Shown here: piece after piece, positions 41,874 through 58,040 of the stretch
Numbering within the stretch: the stretch's first letter is position 1
How the letters are laid out: each line of letters opens with the position of its first letter
NCBI RefSeq assembly: GCF_030864355.1
Contig: NC_083393.1
Coordinates: 2,728,001 to 2,792,000, forward strand
Origin: Cutaneotrichosporon cavernicola
Taxonomy: Eukaryota > Basidiomycota > Tremellomycetes > Trichosporonales > Trichosporonaceae
Length of the DNA stretch: 64,000 nt
Direction: 5' to 3'
Program-made: the position numbers and the translations under genes
The notes under the pieces: generated by a model
Databases searched by the model: none
What the model was told of the DNA's origin: nothing
The model's input: the letters and a program-made list of their open reading frames with translations, nothing else

Positions 41874-44433
41874 ATGGCATTTCCAAGGCCCAAACCCACT
41901 ACGGTGAGCTCTACGCTGATGAGTTGAACTGACCCCAGATGGAGATGCTCGCAACTGTGAGCTCCACACTACTGACGGCACTGACCAACAGGAGCGTCAC
42001 GACCCGCCTTTCAATGTCCGCAAGATGGCTGTTGCCCTCCACGGCTCCGAGGAGGCTCTCCAGCTCAAGGAGAAGTTCATGGCAGAGGTAAGTTGAGCCG
42101 TGGCTTTCGGCCAGCGTCGAGCGGCCAGCGGCCAGCGGCCAGTGGTAGTACTGGGCAGTGGCTTGGTGCTAGTGGTGGCGTCGAGTCTACCCCGAGGTTG
42201 CCACTCGGACAACAAGCCCCACTTCTGTACCATCCTGCTCGTCTATCTCGCAGGCACCGGCTGCCATCAATCACTAACAGCAGCTCGCGAGAAACCCTGC
42301 GTTCAAGAACAACGACATCCATGATATCTCCAAGGATGAGATTCGTGAACGGACAATGGAGAAGGTGAGTGGCTGAAACATTTTCGGCTGTGACTCTCCC
42401 CCGGCCCGAGCTCATGCCAGTTCGGCGCAATGGTCGAGTTTGTGACGACCGAGAGCATCGAAGTCTTCACTCAGCGCATGGCGCTCGTTGGCATTGCCGA
42501 CCCGGCCTTTTGGACGCGCTTTGGTGTCCACTACGGCCTGTTCTTGGGGGCGCTTCGCAGTGGCGCCACTCCCAACCAGATGAGTGAGTGATGGTAATCG
42601 CCGAGGCATGGCGATCGGCATGTTGTATGGAAATCATGGAAATCCGGCTAACGCACAGGCTACTGGATTGACAAGGGAGTACTCGGCCTCAACGGCGTCA
42701 TCGGCTGCTTTGCCATGACTGAGCTGGGTCACGGCTCAAACGTCGCTGGTCTCGAGACTACCGCTACCTTTGACCACGAGAGTGACACGTTTGTCATCAA
42801 CACGCCCCATCTCCGTGCCACCAAGTGGTGGATCGGTGGTGCCGCGAGCTCTGCAACTCACGCGGCCGTCTTTGCTCGTCTCATCATCGACGGCAAGGAC
42901 CACGGCGTCCAGACTTTTGTCACTCAACTGCGCGACCCCAAGACGTTCCGCACCATGCCTGGCATTACGATCGGCGACATTGGCAAAAAGGTGAGCTGCT
43001 TCCTTGACACTGTTAGCTGACAACAGATGGGTCGCGACGGTATCGACAACGGCTACATCCAGTTCACTTTTGTCAACGTGCCGCGCGCGCACATGCTCAT
43101 GAAGAACACGCAGGTGTCGCGCGACGGCAAGGTCACCAAGCCGCCTCTTGCGCAGCTCGCTTACGGCGCGCTTCTCGGTGGCCGCACCTCAATGGTCGCC
43201 GACTCGTCCAACTCTGCCAAGAAGGCTCTCACCATTGCGGTCCGATACGCTGCAGTCCGCCGCCAGTTCGCGTCGGGCGGTAACACGCTCGAGACCCAGC
43301 TCCTCGACTACCCCATCCACCAGCGCCGCCTCATGCCCCTCGTCGCGCAAGCAGTCGCGATTGGGTTTACCGCCACCAAGCTCCAGGCAATGTACGAGGA
43401 CATGACACAGTCGCTCGACCGCCTCAAGCCGACCGACCCGAACCTGATGGAGACTCTTGCCAAGCTCAAGGAGACTCACGCCACCTCTGCAGGCCTCAAG
43501 GCGTTCTGCACATGGTCAACGCTCGACACGATCGAAAAGTGCCGTCAGTCCTGCGGTGGCCACGGCTACTCGTCGTACTCGAACCTCCCCGCGCAGTTCA
43601 ACGACTTTGCTGTCCAGTGCACTTGGGAGGGTGACAACACCATTCTCGCTCTCCAGGCTGGCCGTGCCCTTGTGGCCTCTTATATCGGTGCGACGCAGGG
43701 TGCCAAGCTCCCCTCGGGCGTTGCGTACCTGTCCAACGAGGCCAACCTCACTGCAAAGTCGGATGGCACGCTCTCGCTCGACGACAAGGAGTGCGGTTGG
43801 GACTGCGTCGCTGCCAACGCTGCCAAGAAGGCCGCGTACGAGTACGCCGATTTCCGGAAGCAGGGCAAGCAAAAGGACGAGGCGTACGAGCTGTGCTCGC
43901 AGTCGCGCTTCATCGCCGCAAAGCTCCACACGACTGGCTACATCTTCAAGATGTTCAAGGCCGCGCTCGCCGACCTCGCCGACAGCCCTGAGAAGACGGC
44001 GCTCACCACTGTCGCCAAGCTTTATGGAGCGTGGCAAATCGAGCAGAACGAGGGCGTTTTCCTCAAGTATGGCTTCCTCCAGCCCTCGCACACGGACGAG
44101 GTACAGCGCCAGGTCGACGCGTTCTGCGCCGAGACGCGCAAGTTCGCCGTGCCCCTCATCGACTCGTTTGCGCTCTCGGACCACATCATCAACTCGCCAC
44201 TCGGCAAGTGGGACGGCTCGGTGTACGAGTCGTACTTTGCCCAGGTGCGGGCGCAGAACCCTCTGCCAAAGGAGCACCCGTACTTTAAGCGTCTTATCAA
44301 GCCGCTTCTCGAGCGCGAGCCATTCAAGCACGTCGATGTCGAGGCTGACATGGACCTTGACAACGAGCTGGCGGAAATGCACGCCAGGATGGCAAAGAGC
44401 AAGAGCAAGAAGTCTCGGGACCAGAAGGAGTAG
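41874..44433 (+). CDS. Acyl-CoA oxidase
   Basis: Seven or more exons give about 690 residues. Small first exons (30 nt, then an 18-nt microexon, ATG GAG ATG CTC GCA ACT) precede the core. Key motifs are [20 protein letters not shown] and [20 protein letters not shown] for FAD and substrate binding, then GGRTSMV, and [13 protein letters not shown] followed by CTWEGDN, which holds the catalytic Glu. It catalyses the first step of peroxisomal beta-oxidation, making trans-2-enoyl-CoA and hydrogen peroxide. The C-terminus (SRDQKE) is not a PTS1 signal; some yeast oxidases enter by internal Pex5 contacts. The fourth intron is long, about 195 nt, with a GGCCAGC repeat. Confidence 0.95.
42113..42143. 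repeat. GGCCAGC-type repeat inside an acyl-CoA oxidase intron
   Basis: GCGGCCA-type heptamers repeat about four times in the long intron. It is a minor low-complexity tract. Confidence 0.7.
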
Positions 44434-46845: not shown

Positions 46846-47638
46846 GGTTGGATCGGAGACGCAGCGGAGAGGAGAGAGTTGTGAGCCGCCCCATCGGAAA
46901 CGCGTGTTGTAGCCCGCTCGGCGCAGCGTGGAGTAACAGATATCCGTGTGGAGGACTGACTAACATACAAAGGGGGTGTGGAGCGGCACACGGCACTCTA
47001 TTCCGCGTAGGTATCGGAAGCCGTGAAAACGGAGCAGCGCATGTGAGGAGAGGGGATGACCGCGAGAGGCCAACTGCACGTGGAAACGGCACGCCGTTGT
47101 GTTTGGCAACGGAGCACCGTGCAGCAGTTTGGACCTCGTTTAGGTTAAATGGATGTGTACAGTACTATACAGGTGACTCGGAATGCTGCGGTGGCTGTCG
47201 GATGGGAATGGCACGCGGTCAAGGTGGCTGTCTTGGCATGCCCCTCGTGATCAAGCCGTCATTAGACGCCACGAACCAGCCTCCGACGTCAAGAGAGAGT
47301 TTGAGCATCTGTGACAGGTCATCTGCCGTGATTCCTATGATCCTATAAGTATCAATGCAACGTGCATTCAACGTACATTCCATGTCCCACTCGATAGCGA
47401 ATGTTCTGATCCAGGGAGATCCAGTCACCTAGCACTCGTAACCTTCCTCTCAACCTCGCACCCACCTCAGTACTCCCTGCTCTCAACCTTCCTTCCATTA
47501 CTGATTATATCTTGGACTGAACTCACTCTTCACTCTTTCTCAGCACTCACTCACCCTCCATCTCCATCTCGCGATCTCCTTCCTCTCTCAACCTTGATCG
47601 TGCCTGTCCCTCAATCACCTTCTGTCCCATTCCTCTTC
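46846..47638. other. Intergenic region upstream of the tandem paralogue pair
   Basis: 793 bp without a convincing gene. A TTATAT element at 47505-47510 lies about 130 bp before the first paralogue, followed by a C/T-rich leader. Confidence 0.5.
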
Positions 47639-49247
47639 ATGGATCCCTTCAACCCAAGTGACGAGGTCGTCGAGGAAATCGATCCGTGGCCACTCTGCAA
47701 ACCACTGCCCATCCGACTGCCCATCCCATCTGAATGGCGGAAGGAAGGTTCGGTCGTTCCCGGCTTGCTCCACCTCTCTTTCACGCCCGGCCCTGCTCCA
47801 AGTAGATCGTCTTCGAGCATAGCAAGCTCTTCTCCAAATCCGCTTTCCTCGAGCAATTTCTCTGCCTACAATCTTGAACTCCGACCTGCCGAGACACCCG
47901 ATGGATTCTCTGACCCCATAGAGCCTCCCCCGCCAAACGCGACCTTCCCTCAGTCACTGGCCGACGACGAAATCCTCATCACATTTCCGTCGCTTACCCC
48001 AAACGGCGTCGCTGGCGTGTCTGGCGTCACTGGGCCCTCCCGTTACCCGACCGCCAATGGGCTTGCGAGCTCCATCGACCTTGACTCTTCTCTCTCGCAG
48101 TCTAACCCCGGCTTGCGACCTTGGGTGCTACACCCCCTTCCTTACTCTATTCTTTACTCAGCTGTCTATGGGCCAGGACATCGTTTCATCCCCATTACCC
48201 AAGGAGCGGTAGGCCTCTTTACGTTTAACCACATTCTGCCAACTACCCCAGAAGCGCCACCAGGACGACCAAGCTCTGGAATAATGTCCTTTCCAGGAGG
48301 TTCCATTTCGCCAAGACAACACGCTTCTGCTCATCACGATATCGACCTGGGATGGAACGTTCTGTGGGCCGCTTGGCCATTTCTCACCCACATGGAAGTT
48401 ACCTTAATGGAGCTCGGCACGTACTCACTCTCGAATTTCATGGCCTGCACGCAACTGTTCGCCTCCATGAGCGCACAGATTTATTTCAACCAGGGAATGC
48501 AACTGCTCATGGTTCGTAAGATTTATGCTCTGAGATTCTGCCAAAAAGGAGGCCACAAGTTCGCGTCGACTTGGGATCAGGTCCGCTCCATGGGGTCCGG
48601 GGACAAAGCACGTAGAAGGAGGATGATCGCCTTCATTGCCAAAGCAGAGAGGTCTGCGAGCCGAGTTAGGCAGCTGCTGACCAACAGATACTGTCTCGAG
48701 GACCGCTTCGTAGAGGCGCTTCATGAGTATGGTGCCGCTTGGCTCCACACTCTCCCCTGGTTCCCTGAAGGTGAGCTCGAGGGCAGAAATGATTGGTATT
48801 GGGAAGAGTGAGTACGTTCACGACGCGATATGTTGACGTATCAAGACGTGGCAAAATCTGTGTCGCTATCGCCCATGCAGGGGCGTTGGGAAGCAAGAAA
48901 GGTTCCGACACTGGACAGGCCGTGCTTTCTCCAATCGGCTGGATGGCGATCAAGGCCGTTCTCTGGCAGCCGGCCTTGCATTCAGTCGCCATCATCAAGA
49001 ATGCCTGTAGGTCTCTAAGACCCTTTCACGCTGACCAGCCACAGGTCTCGCTGCAGAGATCCTTTCTACCTGCATCCCTGACGAGACGGGGCACACTTCC
49101 CAGGCAGAGATGTGGAGGCTGCAGCAGACCCTCCTCAATCCAGTGACCTGTGAGGCGTTTCGTGACGCTCCAACAAACATTCACACTGCATTTTTCAAGT
49201 GTGGCGCGTACCAAAACCTGTGGATCTGTGGAAGAGAGGATTACTGA
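47639..49247 (+). CDS. Unknown-family protein, tandem paralogue A
   Basis: Three exons (47639-48807, 48846-49006, 49045-49247) give 510 residues. The family is not one I recognise. Residues 1 to about 230 are Pro/Ser-rich and probably disordered. A folded region starts at DLGWNVLWAAWPFLTHMEV, continues with IYFNQGMQLLMVRKIYALRF, an Arg/Lys-rich helix, YGAAWLHTLPWFPEGELEG, RGKICVAIAHAGA, and IGWMAIKAVLWQPALHSVAI, and ends with TCEAFRD and AFFKCGAYQNLW. Many Trp, Cys and aromatic residues mark a compact domain. The downstream gene repeats these blocks in the same order, with the last two introns at equivalent positions. There is no signal peptide or clear membrane segment. Function unknown. Confidence 0.82.
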
Positions 49248-49615
49248 CGTCTGAGTGACTCATGGACTAGGAAATGGTAGCCTAGTGAGCCAGTAACTTG
49301 GCATTCTGTTTGTACTGTAGTTGCCTCTGAGTTTTGCAATGCAATTACAAGTAGCGTTCCTCTGAGTGGCACTTGGAGTTAGAATTCTGCCACACTTGCC
49401 AAGATGCCACGCAAGTAACGCAACTCGCACCCCAGTTGACTCTGCTACGTTAAAGCCCCATTCTCGCACCCACTGACCCACCTTCCTCCTTGGTTCACCA
49501 TATAAGCATTCTCCAACTCAACTACCCTTCTTCACCTTCACCTTCTTCACCTTCATTCTTTCCTCAACTCCCCTTTCGTTGCTCGCTTTCTTGACCTACC
49601 CACTTTTCGTTCCAG
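49248..49615 (+). other. Spacer between the tandem paralogues, with a TATA-like element
   Basis: 368 bp. ATATAAG at 49500-49506 lies about 110 bp upstream of paralogue B, then a repeated CTTCACCTTCACCTTC leader. The spacing resembles the promoter of paralogue A. Confidence 0.55.
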
Positions 49616-51305
49616 ATGGGAAAAAGTAAACACCACAAGGCAGGGACCAAGAGCCGCCCGGTCAGCACCAACGGGAAGGTGACAGACTTGCTCAACCGCG
49701 TCCGCGAGGTCCTCCAACCTGCCGCCCCACCTTCCTCGGTGGACAAGCAACTCGTAGCGCTGGCAGTCGTGGCAAAGGTACCGGATGCGACGGCTACCCT
49801 GAACCCCAACGACCTGGGCATCGAGACCGTCTGGGAGGAAGAGCCACCTACTACCAACCCGATGGCCGGTTTGGACAGCCCCATCATCCAGCCCAAGCCG
49901 TCTGATCCAATCGAGACGCTCCAGGAGGACCTCGCTTCTGGAACGGACAACCCCACTTTCGGCAATATTATTGACAAGGAGACGCACTCAACCTTCGAGA
50001 ACGCTGGTACCAAGTTGACTCCAGGTGCCCAGCCAGGCCGCTCTCTTCCAAACAACATAAAGCCAACCATTTCAATACCCCTTAAACCCACTTCATCGGG
50101 CAGCCCTACCTCGAGTATCGACACGGATCCGTCGGTGAAGGTTGACAAGGCCCGTCTCGGCGACCGGCCCCTGGCTTGGAACGAACTTTGGGCTGCGTGG
50201 CCTATTCTCAGTCTTGAGGAGATCAAAGGAGCAAGGGAGAGCCGACAGCCGTTGGATGTTTTCTGGTGGCGGTAAGTGACCCTCGCAACTGCTACGGAAA
50301 CTAAGCGCAGTGACTACTGGCACTTGTATGGATACTGCACCTCATCGTAAATCCGCTCCCCCATCAAACTCCACCAGACACACGTCTTTCTCACTCCACG
50401 TCAGGCAGGTTCAAGCCTTCCCCGATACTCCTTCCCTCACATTCCAATTATATCTCATTTTTGCTCACCGTAGTGATGGTCTGCTATTGATCCACCCACC
50501 TCAACGCACGGCCTCTTATCGCATGTCACCGTGTCAGATTGCCAAGCTCTGGATGGACCGCGGGATGCACCTCCAGATTATCCGGCAAATCTATCAGTTG
50601 CGGTGGGTAAATGACGGGGCTCAGAGGTTCAACAACATTCTGGAACTTGTCAAGAGTCTCGAGGAACACAAAGTCGCCCAGCGGCTCAGTCTTGTGCGGC
50701 AGACCTTGGGCAGCGGCCGGAAGTACGTGTGATCTCCTCCGCGACGCTGATGCCCAGGAACAAGGACAAGGAGGATTTCGTTCAAACTCTGGTCGAATAC
50801 GCCAATGCGTTCATGTACACGCTTCCCTGGTTCGAGGAGGCCGGCGCCCTCAACTCCGACATAAACAACCTCATCAAACTGTAGGTGATCCATCGAATAC
50901 GATGCTAACCGGAGCCGGGGACTGTGTTTCGCTATGATCGCGAGGGCTGCTGGACAGTATAGCTGTCAGCCCACCACTGACGACCGCATCGTCAACATCG
51001 GATGGCTTGCGACCAAGGCAGTCCTCTGGAATGCCCAGCGATTCCCAGTCTCCATCATTACGTCTACCTGTTAGTCCGACTTTTCCGGGCTGCTGACCCA
51101 TCCAGGCCAAGCCTCTCTCATCCTAAATGACTCGTTTCCAACGGCCGAAAATTCAACCCCCCGGCACATCCACGCCCAGTTCTTTGGCGAGCAAATGGAC
51201 TTCCTTAAACAAGCGACATGCGAACAATTTATTGACGTTCCAGACCACTTGCGTGCCCCGTTCTTCCGGTTCAACATGTACAACGAACACTGCGAAAACT
51301 GTTGA
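49616..51305 (+). CDS. Unknown-family protein, tandem paralogue B
   Basis: Six exons (49616-50271, 50311-50346, 50474-50722, 50758-50880, 50915-51069, 51106-51305) give exactly 472 residues. The N-terminus is basic (MGKSKHHKAGTKSR), followed by about 180 disordered residues unlike paralogue A. The shared region begins WNELWAAWPILSLEEIKGAR and continues LWMDRGMHLQIIRQIYQLRW, YANAFMYTLPWFEEAGALN, RGLCFAMIARAAG, NIGWLATKAVLWNAQRFPVS, TCEQFIDVPDHL and APFFRFNMYNEHCENC. The last two introns match paralogue A in position and phase (2 and 1); three others are unique to B. Exon 2 is only 36 nt and the following intron 127 nt. Function unknown. Confidence 0.82.
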
Positions 51306-51516
51306 CGGGCGGCGACCTGTATAATACACAGGCAGCCGATTCACCAGGCCACCAAAGCGACTCGCACTGGTGCCCGTAAGGGTTACCTGACACGTAGATA
51401 GCCTTGTTCCCGGTTCCTAATACGTAGTACTGTCATCCTGTAGCGACGAATGAAGATAGTGCACTTGTTCTGCTTGGCCTAGCTTGCCACAACCCCTATT
51501 CTACCCGTCCATGTAA

Positions 51517-53314
51517 TTAAGCCTCAATCTCCTGGTTCTCGCGCTTCTTGAGCACGAGCTTCTCGCCCTTGATGCGCTGCCACACGTCGGCAACGTCGTC
51601 TGTACGTCAGCCACATCGACAGGTCTGTGACTCACCAACAACAGTCTCGAAGTGCGAAGTCGCGTCATAAGACTTGGTGATGCTGTTATGTCAGTGCATG
51701 TCTCCAATCATGGTCTGAACTCACAAGATGTTGTCGCTGGAGCCGTCGGCGGTAGGAGCGTACAGAGGCAGGATCGAGACAAACTTGTCCTCGACCTTGC
51801 CAAGGAGCTGGAGACCGGGGAGAATCTCGCGCTCGGGCACCGACGTCTCGACAATGGTTGAGACGATGGCAATGTAGACACCCTCGGCGGCAACGTTGTG
51901 AGACGACGAGACGGCGGCGATGTAGATGTCTGATGTCAGCTGCTTGTGGGCTCCCCTCCTTACCGTTCTTACGCCCGACCTGGTTCTGGGGAATGATGAT
52001 CTGGCACGAGTCGGCGTTCTCAGTGCCCGGGATGGGGTGCTTGAGGATGCAGATGGCACGGACAACCTTGCCGGTCTCGACAACGCGGATCTTGCCGCCC
52101 TCAGCCTCCTGGCCGGCGCCAAAGTACGATGGGTCGCCAATAACGCGCTTGGCCTTGACGGTCTCGCCATCCGAGGTGACGCTCACAAACTTGCCGTCGT
52201 CGTCGACGTTGACCGAGTCTACCTTCTTCGAGAGCATGTAGGTGCCGCCGTAGACAGCCGAGAGGCGCGAGAAGGCCTGGGGCAGCTCGCCAAGGCCGTA
52301 GAGTGGGTAGAGGTAGGGCGACTTGCCGTAGCGCGCCATCGACTCCGCGTAGAGGCGGATGCGCTCCATGGTGGGCTTGGCGGGCTTGGTCTTGTAGCTG
52401 GAAGATCAGTTGTGTATCACGCTGTAGCTCACTCGTCGTCGAGCCACAGGGCCATGGCGTGGCCGATGAAGTCCTGGGTGCCGGCCTCGAGGCCGAACTT
52501 TGTGAACAGGTCGTTCATGGTCTGAGTGTCCGCGTCAAAGCCTGTGTCGACGTCAGCATTGATCCTACCACGCGGGACCGGCGCGCGCAAGGCCCCACCG
52601 CCCGGACCCAGACCCAAACCAAGACCTACCCTCAAGCGTGGTCGGGTCGTCCGGGTTCCACCTCTGGAGGTAGCCAAAGAACTTGCGGGCGCGGTTCTTC
52701 TCAAAGAGACCCATGAGTGACGAGCGGATAGCCTCGCTCTCATTCGAGGGCACCTTGGCAATCTTGCCGTCACGGTACACGTAAGAGCCCGCAATCTGCT
52801 TGAAGTCGAGGTAGCGTGTCACGTCGGTGTGCACGAGGATCTTGGTGAGCTCACCCGACGCAAGGATGAACTTGGGGATGAGGTCGACGGCGTAGGAGCG
52901 GTCCTTGCCGAGGTTGAGCTCCTCAGGCGGGGCACTGCCACGGAACTTCTGGTAGAGCTGGGGTCAGCACGGCATGCGATGTAACGCACCTGGGTGAGGT
53001 TCAAGGAGGCGCTCTCGCCGCCGTAGTAGTCGTTGCGGTCCATGTGGAGGACCTTCTGGCCATCGACCGAGAGGAGGCCCGAGAGGATGCACTCGGTAAG
53101 GCCAGTGCCCTGTGCGCGCTGTCAGTACGTGTCATGCGCCGTGCACATGTACGGGGCGCTGTCAACTTACGAGAACGATAACCTGGGATCGTCAGCATCG
53201 GTTCGGGAGGGGAGGTGGGGAGGGAAGGTGATGTGGCTACGAGGGGCGCGGCGGCTGCCTGTGGCAACGGGAAGGGCGAATGGAGGTGATACTCACGTCA
53301 TACTCCTCGTCCAT
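51517..53314 (-). CDS. GDI1: Rab GDP-dissociation inhibitor
   Basis: A spliced gene of about 450 residues. The start MDEEYDV leads by splicing into [18 protein letters not shown], the dinucleotide-fold signature of the GDI/CHM family. Then come [67 protein letters not shown], a Rab-binding platform ([20 protein letters not shown]) and [20 protein letters not shown]. It extracts prenylated GDP-bound Rab proteins from membranes and recycles them through the cytosol in vesicle traffic. About seven introns are short. The 5' leader on this strand contains a CT microsatellite. Confidence 0.95.
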
Positions 53315-55489: not shown

Positions 55490-55704
55490 TGTACTCTACA
55501 GCGGCGCTCGTGCCGCGTTCGATCATAGATGCGTCTTTTTAGCATGAGAGTGCGCGTCGCGACTCTGTTCTGTCCGGGTTTCTGTCGATGTGATTTCTGC
55601 ATGATGACGAGTTGTCGGTGGCAACTGGCAAGTGGAAGCGGAAGCTTTTTTTCAAGCTGAAAGTTCAAACCCTTGTGAAGACAAGTTCACAACAACACAC
55701 TAAA

Positions 55705-58040
55705 ATGTTCCGCCTAGCACGACTCGCGCCAGATGTGCGGCAGCTCCAAGTTCGTAGCTATACGACAGGTGCGCTCCATCCGACGGCGTTTGCACTGGCC
55801 GGTGCACGCGGGCGTCCCTTCAAGCCGAGGCAAGATGCTGATAGCGACCGGCCGCCAAGGCGAGATGGAGGGCGTCCTCCGAGAGAAGGGCCCCGTCCTC
55901 TGAGGGATGGAGGACGCTACCCCAGAGATGGCGGGCACGCTCCGAGAGATGGATGGCGGTCCCAGAAGGATAGTGGACGGAGCGGTCCGCCCCGTGGCGG
56001 CGCGACTGACCGCGCGCCAAGAGAATGGCAGCCTCGCGGCGGATCGTTTGCGCGCGGTGGAGCTGCAGGCGCAGTGGCTGGCGCTGCGACTCCCTTCCGC
56101 GGCCGCGACTCTCGTGGCTCTCGTGACTCTCGCGGCTCCCACCGCCGCTCCGACCGCGACGATCGTACTGGGTACGACCGTTATGGTTCCGAGGGAAGCA
56201 AGCGCGAGTGGAAGGTGCGGGGTATGACTCCCCCCACCTCGACGAACCCATACACCCTCTCGCAGCGGGTCAAGAAACACCTCGACCGCTACCCCGACAG
56301 GATGACGCGGCCGCAAGTTGACGAGCTGCTCGCCATCGTGCGCGACGTACCCCCAGACATGGCGACTGCGCCAGTATGGAATTTGGTGCTCGCCCGCATG
56401 GGGCGGGACGGGTATTACTCGGCCATGTGGAAGAGTTTCAATGAGGTAAGGCTATCAAGGCTACGTGGTTGAGCTAATGGAAGATGAAGAAGCGGGGCAC
56501 GAACGCGACCTCGCGTACGTTCACTGTCCTGCTTAATGCGTTTGCCGGTGTTGCGCATTCTGGGGTTGTCAATGACTCATTTGCGCCAGCATCCAAGCCG
56601 GAGCGGTTGACACTCGAGCGTGTGCGTCGGGTATACGATCTTTCGCAGGCGCATATCCGGGCCATGCTCAAGGCCCAAACAAAGAACGAGGGGAGTAGGG
56701 ATAACCTCGGCGTAGCGTATCCCGAAGACCACGATGAGATGCCTACCTTGCTCCCGTCCGAGGAGGTGAGCGTATGGCCCACTAATGCGTACCTCAAGTT
56801 CTTGGGTCGGTACGGTATGTGGAAGGAGATGGAGGCTGTGTTTATGGCTATGGATCGGGAAGGGCCCCTCGCACCAGATGGAGCGACGTACTATACCATG
56901 CTCAACACGGCGAATAACGTCGACCACTACCACCGCTCAATGAAGGACGACAGCCTCCCGGCTATCGAGGTAGGCAGTGTCGGGCGCGCATATTGGGACC
57001 AAGCGGTGCGGTCTGGCGTGGAGATCGACGACCGTATGGCCCTCGCTGCGCTGTCCTGTCTCGCAGCAGGAAGTCCTGCCGACCAGCGCGTGGCCGAGGA
57101 ACTCATCCCGCGCCTCTGGGACCTGTCTGCGCCCGGCCAGCCGGCTTCAGCGACGGGTGCAAAGGGCAAATACTCCCTACCTCGAGCGTGGGACAACCTT
57201 CCCACTTTCTCTCTCGACGTGCGCACAGCTACAACTCTCCTCTCAACCATGCGCCGGATGGGCAACAAGTCCCTCGTCGCGCACTATACTCGCCTGATTG
57301 CCGATGGTCCACTCGCGCGCAACGCAGACCTCGCCCTACTTAGGGTCTTCATCCACAACCTGGCCTTTGCCGGTGACGCCGACGGCGCATCGACCGTCCT
57401 CGAGACATTCCAGCCTCCTTCCGGAAGCGACGGATGGCCCATCGACGTCTATCTCTCAGTCATGGGGGCGGCCCGCTGGGCCGCCGACTGGGACATTGCC
57501 CTCTCGACTTTCCGGCGCATGGTCGCTCTCCCACCTACCGCCGAGGGCGGGATCGGCAAGTACATCTGGAAATCACCCAATGGCCGCCCGCAAGACGTGC
57601 GTGGTCGCCCATGGGTCCCGCCACGCCCTCACCCAGTGAACCCCACTGCGATGGGTTTGTTGTTCAAGACCGCACTGGCCGCTGCCAAGTCGGGTATCAA
57701 GCCCCTTCGCGCCGCGACTGATATTTACGAGTTTTACGGCCCAGACACGTTCTTCGAGGTGCGCACGAGCGCAGGAGTCGTGGATATGAACGCGGGCGAG
57801 GCTAAGCATTGGGACCTTAGTCGCCGGGATTACGGGTTTATTGGGGATGCGGTCGAGCTTGCGCGTGACCTCGAGGTCGCGGCTGAGCGGTTGGCCGAGA
57901 CGCCACGTAACACCGAGGATAGGGAGAAACACGAGGCCATGAGGCGGGACGCGGCGCGGGTTGTGCGTATTTGGGGGAAGAAGGTGGAGGAACGGGGAGA
58001 TAAAAAGCCCAGGCCGAGGTTCTTGCGTTCAGTCGAGTAG
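55705..58040 (+). CDS. Mitochondrial PPR-like protein with Arg/Gly-rich N-terminus
   Basis: Two exons (55705-56444, 56484-58040), 765 residues. The start MFRLARLAPDVRQLQVRSYT is a typical mitochondrial presequence. Residues 30-170 repeat RDGGRxPR and RGGxxRGG-like motifs, suggesting RNA binding. From about residue 200 the protein is helical, with repeated pairs such as VWNLVLARMGRDGYYSAMWK, TFTVLLNAFAGV, AYLKFLGRYGMWKEMEAVFM and YYTMLNTANN that fit pentatricopeptide repeats. Such proteins bind organellar transcripts to control their stability or translation. I cannot assign a specific orthologue. The given ATG is the one that opens the presequence. Confidence 0.8.

Follow-up and report, generated by a model that had tools for sequence, protein, structure and literature searches.

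Two adjacent genes on the forward (+) strand of Cutaneotrichosporon cavernicola (Trichosporonales), denoted here as A (47639–49247, 510 residues, three exons) and B (49616–51305, 472 residues in the six-exon model used here), are very probably two intact protein-coding genes that arose by tandem duplication in the ancestry of this species. The pair occupies positions 47639–51305 of the window, i.e., the whole stretch of 64,000 nucleotides (nt) that was analysed, which is located on a 3.62-Mb contig of a genome of 8 contigs (20.2 Mb). The family to which A and B belong is undescribed, and its named relatives have been found only in the genus Cutaneotrichosporon. Taken as a whole, the best explanation of the locus, and one that we regard as likely, is a duplicated, intact pair of this family in which a helical, tryptophan-rich domain would bind other proteins and the two copies would have split their partners via their tails.

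The paralogy, as proposed in an earlier note on this DNA, is carried by the C-terminal domain, over which A and B are identical at 88 of 298 positions in a BLASTP comparison (expect value, E = 8e-32); their alignment score of 295 compares with a mean of 38 and a maximum of 66 among 500 shuffles. Sequence identity is low (~30%) and the domain is rich in Trp (4.3% in A, 3.8% in B), both as the note had described. Seven blocks had been said to recur in the same order; six of them are literal in both proteins, whereas RGxxCxAxAxA is literal in A and present in B only in a shifted form, as RGLCFAMIARAA. The N-termini do differ: the tails that precede the WAAWP block reach a score of 43, which was attained by 174 of 500 shuffles, and no similarity between them is detectable by this alignment test.

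Coding support and relatives of the pair

Both models close in frame, at 510 residues for A and 472 for B, in agreement with the earlier reading. In a six-frame codon score, with three of the window's open frames (1245 codons in all) as the reference, the modelled frame ranks first in all three exons of A, in both halves of A exon 1, and in the five longer exons of B; it is also top of the six in the 36-nt exon of B, but weakly. The reference consists of an open frame at 43021–44433 (+), which we take to be part of an acyl-CoA oxidase gene, and of two open frames within 55594–58040 (+), presumably encoding a mitochondrial protein of the pentatricopeptide/tetratricopeptide repeat (PPR/TPR) type. 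Exon 1 of A (47639–48807) encodes a Ser/Pro-rich N-terminal tail (residues 1–233) and the first part of the conserved domain; no upstream in-frame ATG exists in its open frame (47315–48811). Exon 2 (48846–49006) runs from RGKIC to IGWMAIKAVLW, and exon 3 (49045–49247), stop included, from TCEAFRD to AFF.

Protein searches yielded five relatives (P0001–P0003, P0004, and P0005), all of which are uncharacterised and closer to B than to A. P0001 (CcaverHIS631_0110380, a C. cavernicola hypothetical protein of 395 residues, representing a cluster of 3 sequences) is gene B itself, with 395 of 395 residues identical, in a model that is without the short exon and stops at the start of the last intron. 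P0002 (CspHIS471_0608210, Cutaneotrichosporon sp. HIS471, 464 residues) covers 100% of the B domain at 92% identity and has the last intron spliced, differing from B in a 15-nt form of the short exon. P0003 (CspeluHIS016_0404700, C. spelunceum, 406 residues) is 74% identical to the B domain over 78% coverage and appears to share its splice places, although its model reads through the last intron and also through intron 3, which by back-translation is 33 nt long and in frame. P0004 (C. oleaginosum, 225 residues) corresponds to B exons 4–6 in full and to the greater part of exon 3, is identical to B at 133 of 225 positions and ~36% identical to A across the matching part, and lacks, as deposited, the N-terminal tail and the WAAWP block. 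P0005 (source 'lgn') is a 156-residue fragment that is B-like from HPPQRT to TLPWF, apparently with a 33-nt in-frame intron 3 unspliced. B matches P0002, P0001, and P0003 at E = 4e-178, 6e-135, and 5e-110, respectively, and A matches P0001 at 4e-13, while a profile of A, B, and P0003 matches P0004 at 2e-70 and P0005 at 1e-40.

With the domain divided into four consecutive parts (the fourth being B residues 356–407), B and P0002 are identical at 40/42, 78/83, 35/41, and 51/52 positions in these and at 148/179 in the tail; for B and P0003, the counts are 38/49, 61/83, 30/41, and 46/52 in the parts as against 83/168 in the tail. The domain is therefore the most strongly conserved region.

The protein searches required shared exact five-residue words, and one of them scored only the 7996 candidates that share most words; a length rule of 0.55–1.75 led to ranges of 280–892 residues in one search and about 153–487 in another. 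Within these ranges and by this method, no protein resembling A more than B turned up, which is not proof of absence. The named matches, all from Cutaneotrichosporon, fit the suggestion that the family is restricted to Trichosporonales, which nevertheless goes beyond what word-based searches, not being exhaustive, can establish. In the genome of C. cavernicola itself, the domain sequences of A, B, and P0004 revealed no convincing further copies, the matches being A, B, and two weak ones taken as chance, namely on contig C8 (E = 0.018), where no gene of this family was seen by eye, and on contig C1 (E = 0.36); likewise, the tail of B (residues 1–198) matched only itself. The C8 contig also carries a run of C of ~23 nt (L011 1028–1050), downstream of which lies a gene that we take to be Rad21/Rec8 cohesin subunit-like. 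A single match among phage records (E = 0.3) was rejected. A search for the locus tag of these genes found no paper, and this search is the sole basis for stating that nothing on them is in print.

The duplication had been called old; its age is not shown, as a tree cannot place A with support. The best tree sets A beside the C. cavernicola B with a non-significant support of 62/49, and the branch of A measures 3.65 changes per column. Six other groupings, chosen after the tree had been seen, all lie within 3.2 log-likelihood units, three of them with p values of 0.040–0.043 and three with 0.096–0.164 in the approximately unbiased (AU) test. The grouping that corresponds to an older origin, in which the B genes of C. 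cavernicola, HIS471, and C. spelunceum are united to the exclusion of A, has a p-AU of 0.040, which is weak evidence against an old duplication. Given the very long branch of A and these borderline p values, no conclusion on the date is drawn; if the tests lean at all, it is not towards a duplication that preceded the split from C. spelunceum.

The same long branch could suggest that A is a recent pseudogene or disused gene beside a functional B, as could the failure of the protein searches to find anything closer to A and a GC content at third codon positions of 0.59 in A, compared with 0.68 in B and 0.83 in part of the upstream acyl-CoA-oxidase-like gene. Codon bias is weaker than in this neighbour in B as well as in A. 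However, A remains open across 510 codons with neither a stop nor a frameshift, its exons score best in the modelled frame, and both of its introns have GT-AG ends, at only 30% identity to B; since a long neutral history would presumably have broken such a gene, A is improbable as a pseudogene, and two intact genes remain the preferred reading.

Introns of A and B and the last exon of B

The last two introns of the two genes coincide in site and phase, as the earlier note had claimed. A intron 1 (48808–48845, 38 nt) and B intron 4 (50881–50914, 34 nt) are both in phase 2, in the codon before Arg-Gly, and A intron 2 (49007–49044, 38 nt) and B intron 5 (51070–51105, 36 nt) both interrupt the codon of a shared Cys in phase 1. 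By a back-of-envelope estimate (5 sites over ~830 positions, squared), the chance of both coincidences is ~4 in 100,000. A branch-like CTNAY motif is found in 5 of the 7 inferred introns of the pair, the two without it being intron 1 of A and intron 1 of B.

The further statement that three introns are unique to B, implying loss in A or gain in B, calls for revision. Introns 1 and 2 of B sit within a 26-residue segment that is missing from A in the alignment, and hence a single insertion or deletion is a simpler account than two separate intron losses. Intron 3 of B (50723–50757, 35 nt, phase 2), which is spliced in the models of P0001, P0002, and P0004, splits a codon six residues ahead of the Phe-Val in DFVQTL. 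An 11-residue insertion of A relative to B falls at this very point of the alignment and matches an intron-like, in-frame segment of 36 nt inside A exon 1 (48652–48687, +), which reads GTCTGC...CTGACCAACAG. Leaving this segment out would produce a split codon six residues ahead of the Phe-Val in RFVEAL, in phase 2 as in B, and the upstream spacing to a shared Leu-Arg block then differs by one residue (40 versus 41, counted by eye). Exon 1 of A (1169 nt) contains three GT..CTNAY..AG stretches of 33–45 nt, and in this one alone is the length a multiple of three. Its donor, GTCTGC, is poor, with a C at position 3 that occurs in 0 of the 7 inferred introns of the pair. At this place, the residues of P0003 and P0005 allow, by manual back-translation of the protein, in-frame introns of 33 nt whose donors would be GTTYGT and GTGYGT and which would carry a branch-like CTNAAY or CTNAC and close with AG; P0001, P0002, and P0004 are without residues there, as if spliced. 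It is thus probable that segment 48652–48687 is the ancestral third intron, either turned into coding sequence or kept as a weak optional intron.

The coding structure of B can be followed along the locus from exon 1 (49616–50271), which encodes a basic start, the variable tail, and the beginning of the domain (WNELWAAWPIL) and is identical to P0001. The adjoining stretch 50272–50473 is of uncertain structure: many exon combinations keep the frame open, and each of the three long deposited models divides it differently, with no short exon in P0001, a 15-nt form in P0002, and a 36-nt form in P0003. The short exon placed here at 50311–50346 (DYWHLYGYCTSS) is therefore provisional; its counterpart in P0003 reads DYPNLYGYCTSS, the 36-nt form matching B in the eight residues LYGYCTSS. 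Intron 2 (50347–50473) measures 127 nt in the 472-residue model, as against 34–39 nt for the other six introns of the pair, and may hide a further splice variant. Exon 3 (50474–50722) encodes GMHLQIIRQIYQLR, exon 4 (50758–50880) contains TLPWF, exon 5 (50915–51069) extends from RGLCFAMIARAAG to IGWLATKAVLW, and exon 6 (51106–51305), stop included, extends from TCEQFID to APFFRFN.

Weighing most heavily against this model of B, two of the three long deposited models, those of C. cavernicola (P0001) and C. spelunceum (P0003), leave the intron at 51070–51105 unspliced and end at its start, at the shared Cys, where the unspliced DNA of the window reads TGT TAG. It could be argued from these two ends that B normally terminates at the stop within its last intron, at 395 residues, and that the last exon is read only upon splicing, i.e., by regulated intron retention. 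Nevertheless, the last exon is included in P0002 and P0004, in which it is conserved at 63 of 65 and 41 of 65 residues despite its omission from the other two models, and it is homologous to the last exon of A. A mistake in gene prediction would account for the short forms as well as real intron retention would; on balance, regulated retention as the normal state is unlikely, and the spliced, six-exon form of B is preferred. The published assemblies of these species are described as having been annotated by BRAKER, with mapped RNA sequencing reads as hints for Augustus (PMC10568926).

Immediately downstream of B, and transcribed towards it from the minus strand, is a gene at 51501–52818 that we take to be Rab GDP-dissociation inhibitor-like.

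Family, fold, and proposed function

In accordance with the earlier note, no characterised family is matched convincingly by A, B, or their relatives in Pfam, NCBIfam, PDB sequences, or structure comparisons. In Pfam, no family reaches its cut-off in any of these proteins; V_ATPase_I_N, DUF5092, Imm58, and SupH-like_C fall below it, being weak and not common to the members. The NCBIfam matches, for which A and B were scanned as domains rather than at full length, are confined to single members or remain far below cut-off. The strongest, to the amidohydrolase PRK06846 (E = 0.00044 in one scan and 0.0012 for full-length P0003 in another), concerns one member only and scores 17.7 bits against a cut-off of 447; PRK14953 is weak and not shared, and Cas1e (TIGR03638; E = 0.11, 0.14, and 0.2) obtains ~11 bits against 215.6. 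Among PDB sequences, with which B and the family profile were compared, no match falls below E = 0.26 and 0.88, respectively, and the matches to RSC8, Med21, and Cas1 are weak and not common to the members.

Alternatively, the domain could belong to a known helical family, for example as a TPR-like co-chaperone or a terpene-synthase-like protein, but have diverged so far that the searches missed it. For instance, TPR-containing immunophilins lead the structural match lists, which are non-significant and derived from weak models, and one of six members matches terpene synthase family 2 (Terpene_syn_C_2, PF19086) at E = 0.032 (14.4 bits versus a cut-off of 23.7). Apart from these leads, no TPR family is listed for any of the proteins at E up to 1 or up to 5, and neither the DDxxD/E-type nor the NSE-type metal motif of terpene synthases occurs in B, P0001–P0005, or the A domain, the only occurrences in A being at residues 8 and 88, within its N-terminal tail. 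The AlphaFold models contain helices only, but mean predicted local distance difference test (pLDDT) values of 30.6 and 52.9 are too weak to name a fold, and with these weak query models Foldseek returned no match at E of 0.001 or better in PDB or BFVD. Together with the PDB sequence values and the lack of a Pfam match above cut-off, these observations leave a hidden member of a known helical family as a serious but minority possibility, and an undescribed family as the preferred assignment.

Neither protein appears to be secreted, and both would be soluble: the best 19-residue Kyte-Doolittle mean is 1.5 in A and 1.1 in B, with no strongly hydrophobic stretch, and the N-termini, MDPFNPSDE and MGKSKHHK, are not signal-peptide-like by eye. 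In the proposed explanation, an ancestral gene would have been duplicated in tandem in the ancestry of C. cavernicola, after which A and B diverged. The product would be an intracellular protein that is not secreted; its tail would evolve fast and probably be disordered, and its domain would be all-helical and rich in Trp. The different tails would give A and B different partners or regulation, and A would either have made the ancestral third intron part of its coding sequence or keep it as a weak optional intron. That the domain acts as a soluble intracellular protein-binding module, adaptor or regulatory, rather than as an enzyme is the role that we favour, but a tentative and somewhat unlikely one when taken by itself. 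Doubtful is a more far-reaching reading, in which a family possessing its own fold originated, or became unrecognisable through divergence, within Trichosporonales, one C. cavernicola copy having exonised an intron and the other keeping a conserved intron-retention switch that removes the last 65 residues.

Gene families restricted to one lineage are common and, for the most part, uncharacterised. The novelty of the present case is limited to an undescribed family, by name in one genus so far, and to a probable exonised intron. The disagreement among the deposited models of B, along with the failure of the database searches to yield a protein nearer to A than to B, indicates that the annotation of this locus is in need of revision. 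At the same time, the A/B pair offers a single locus at which a duplication, an insertion or deletion, and a possible conversion of an intron into an exon can all be read.
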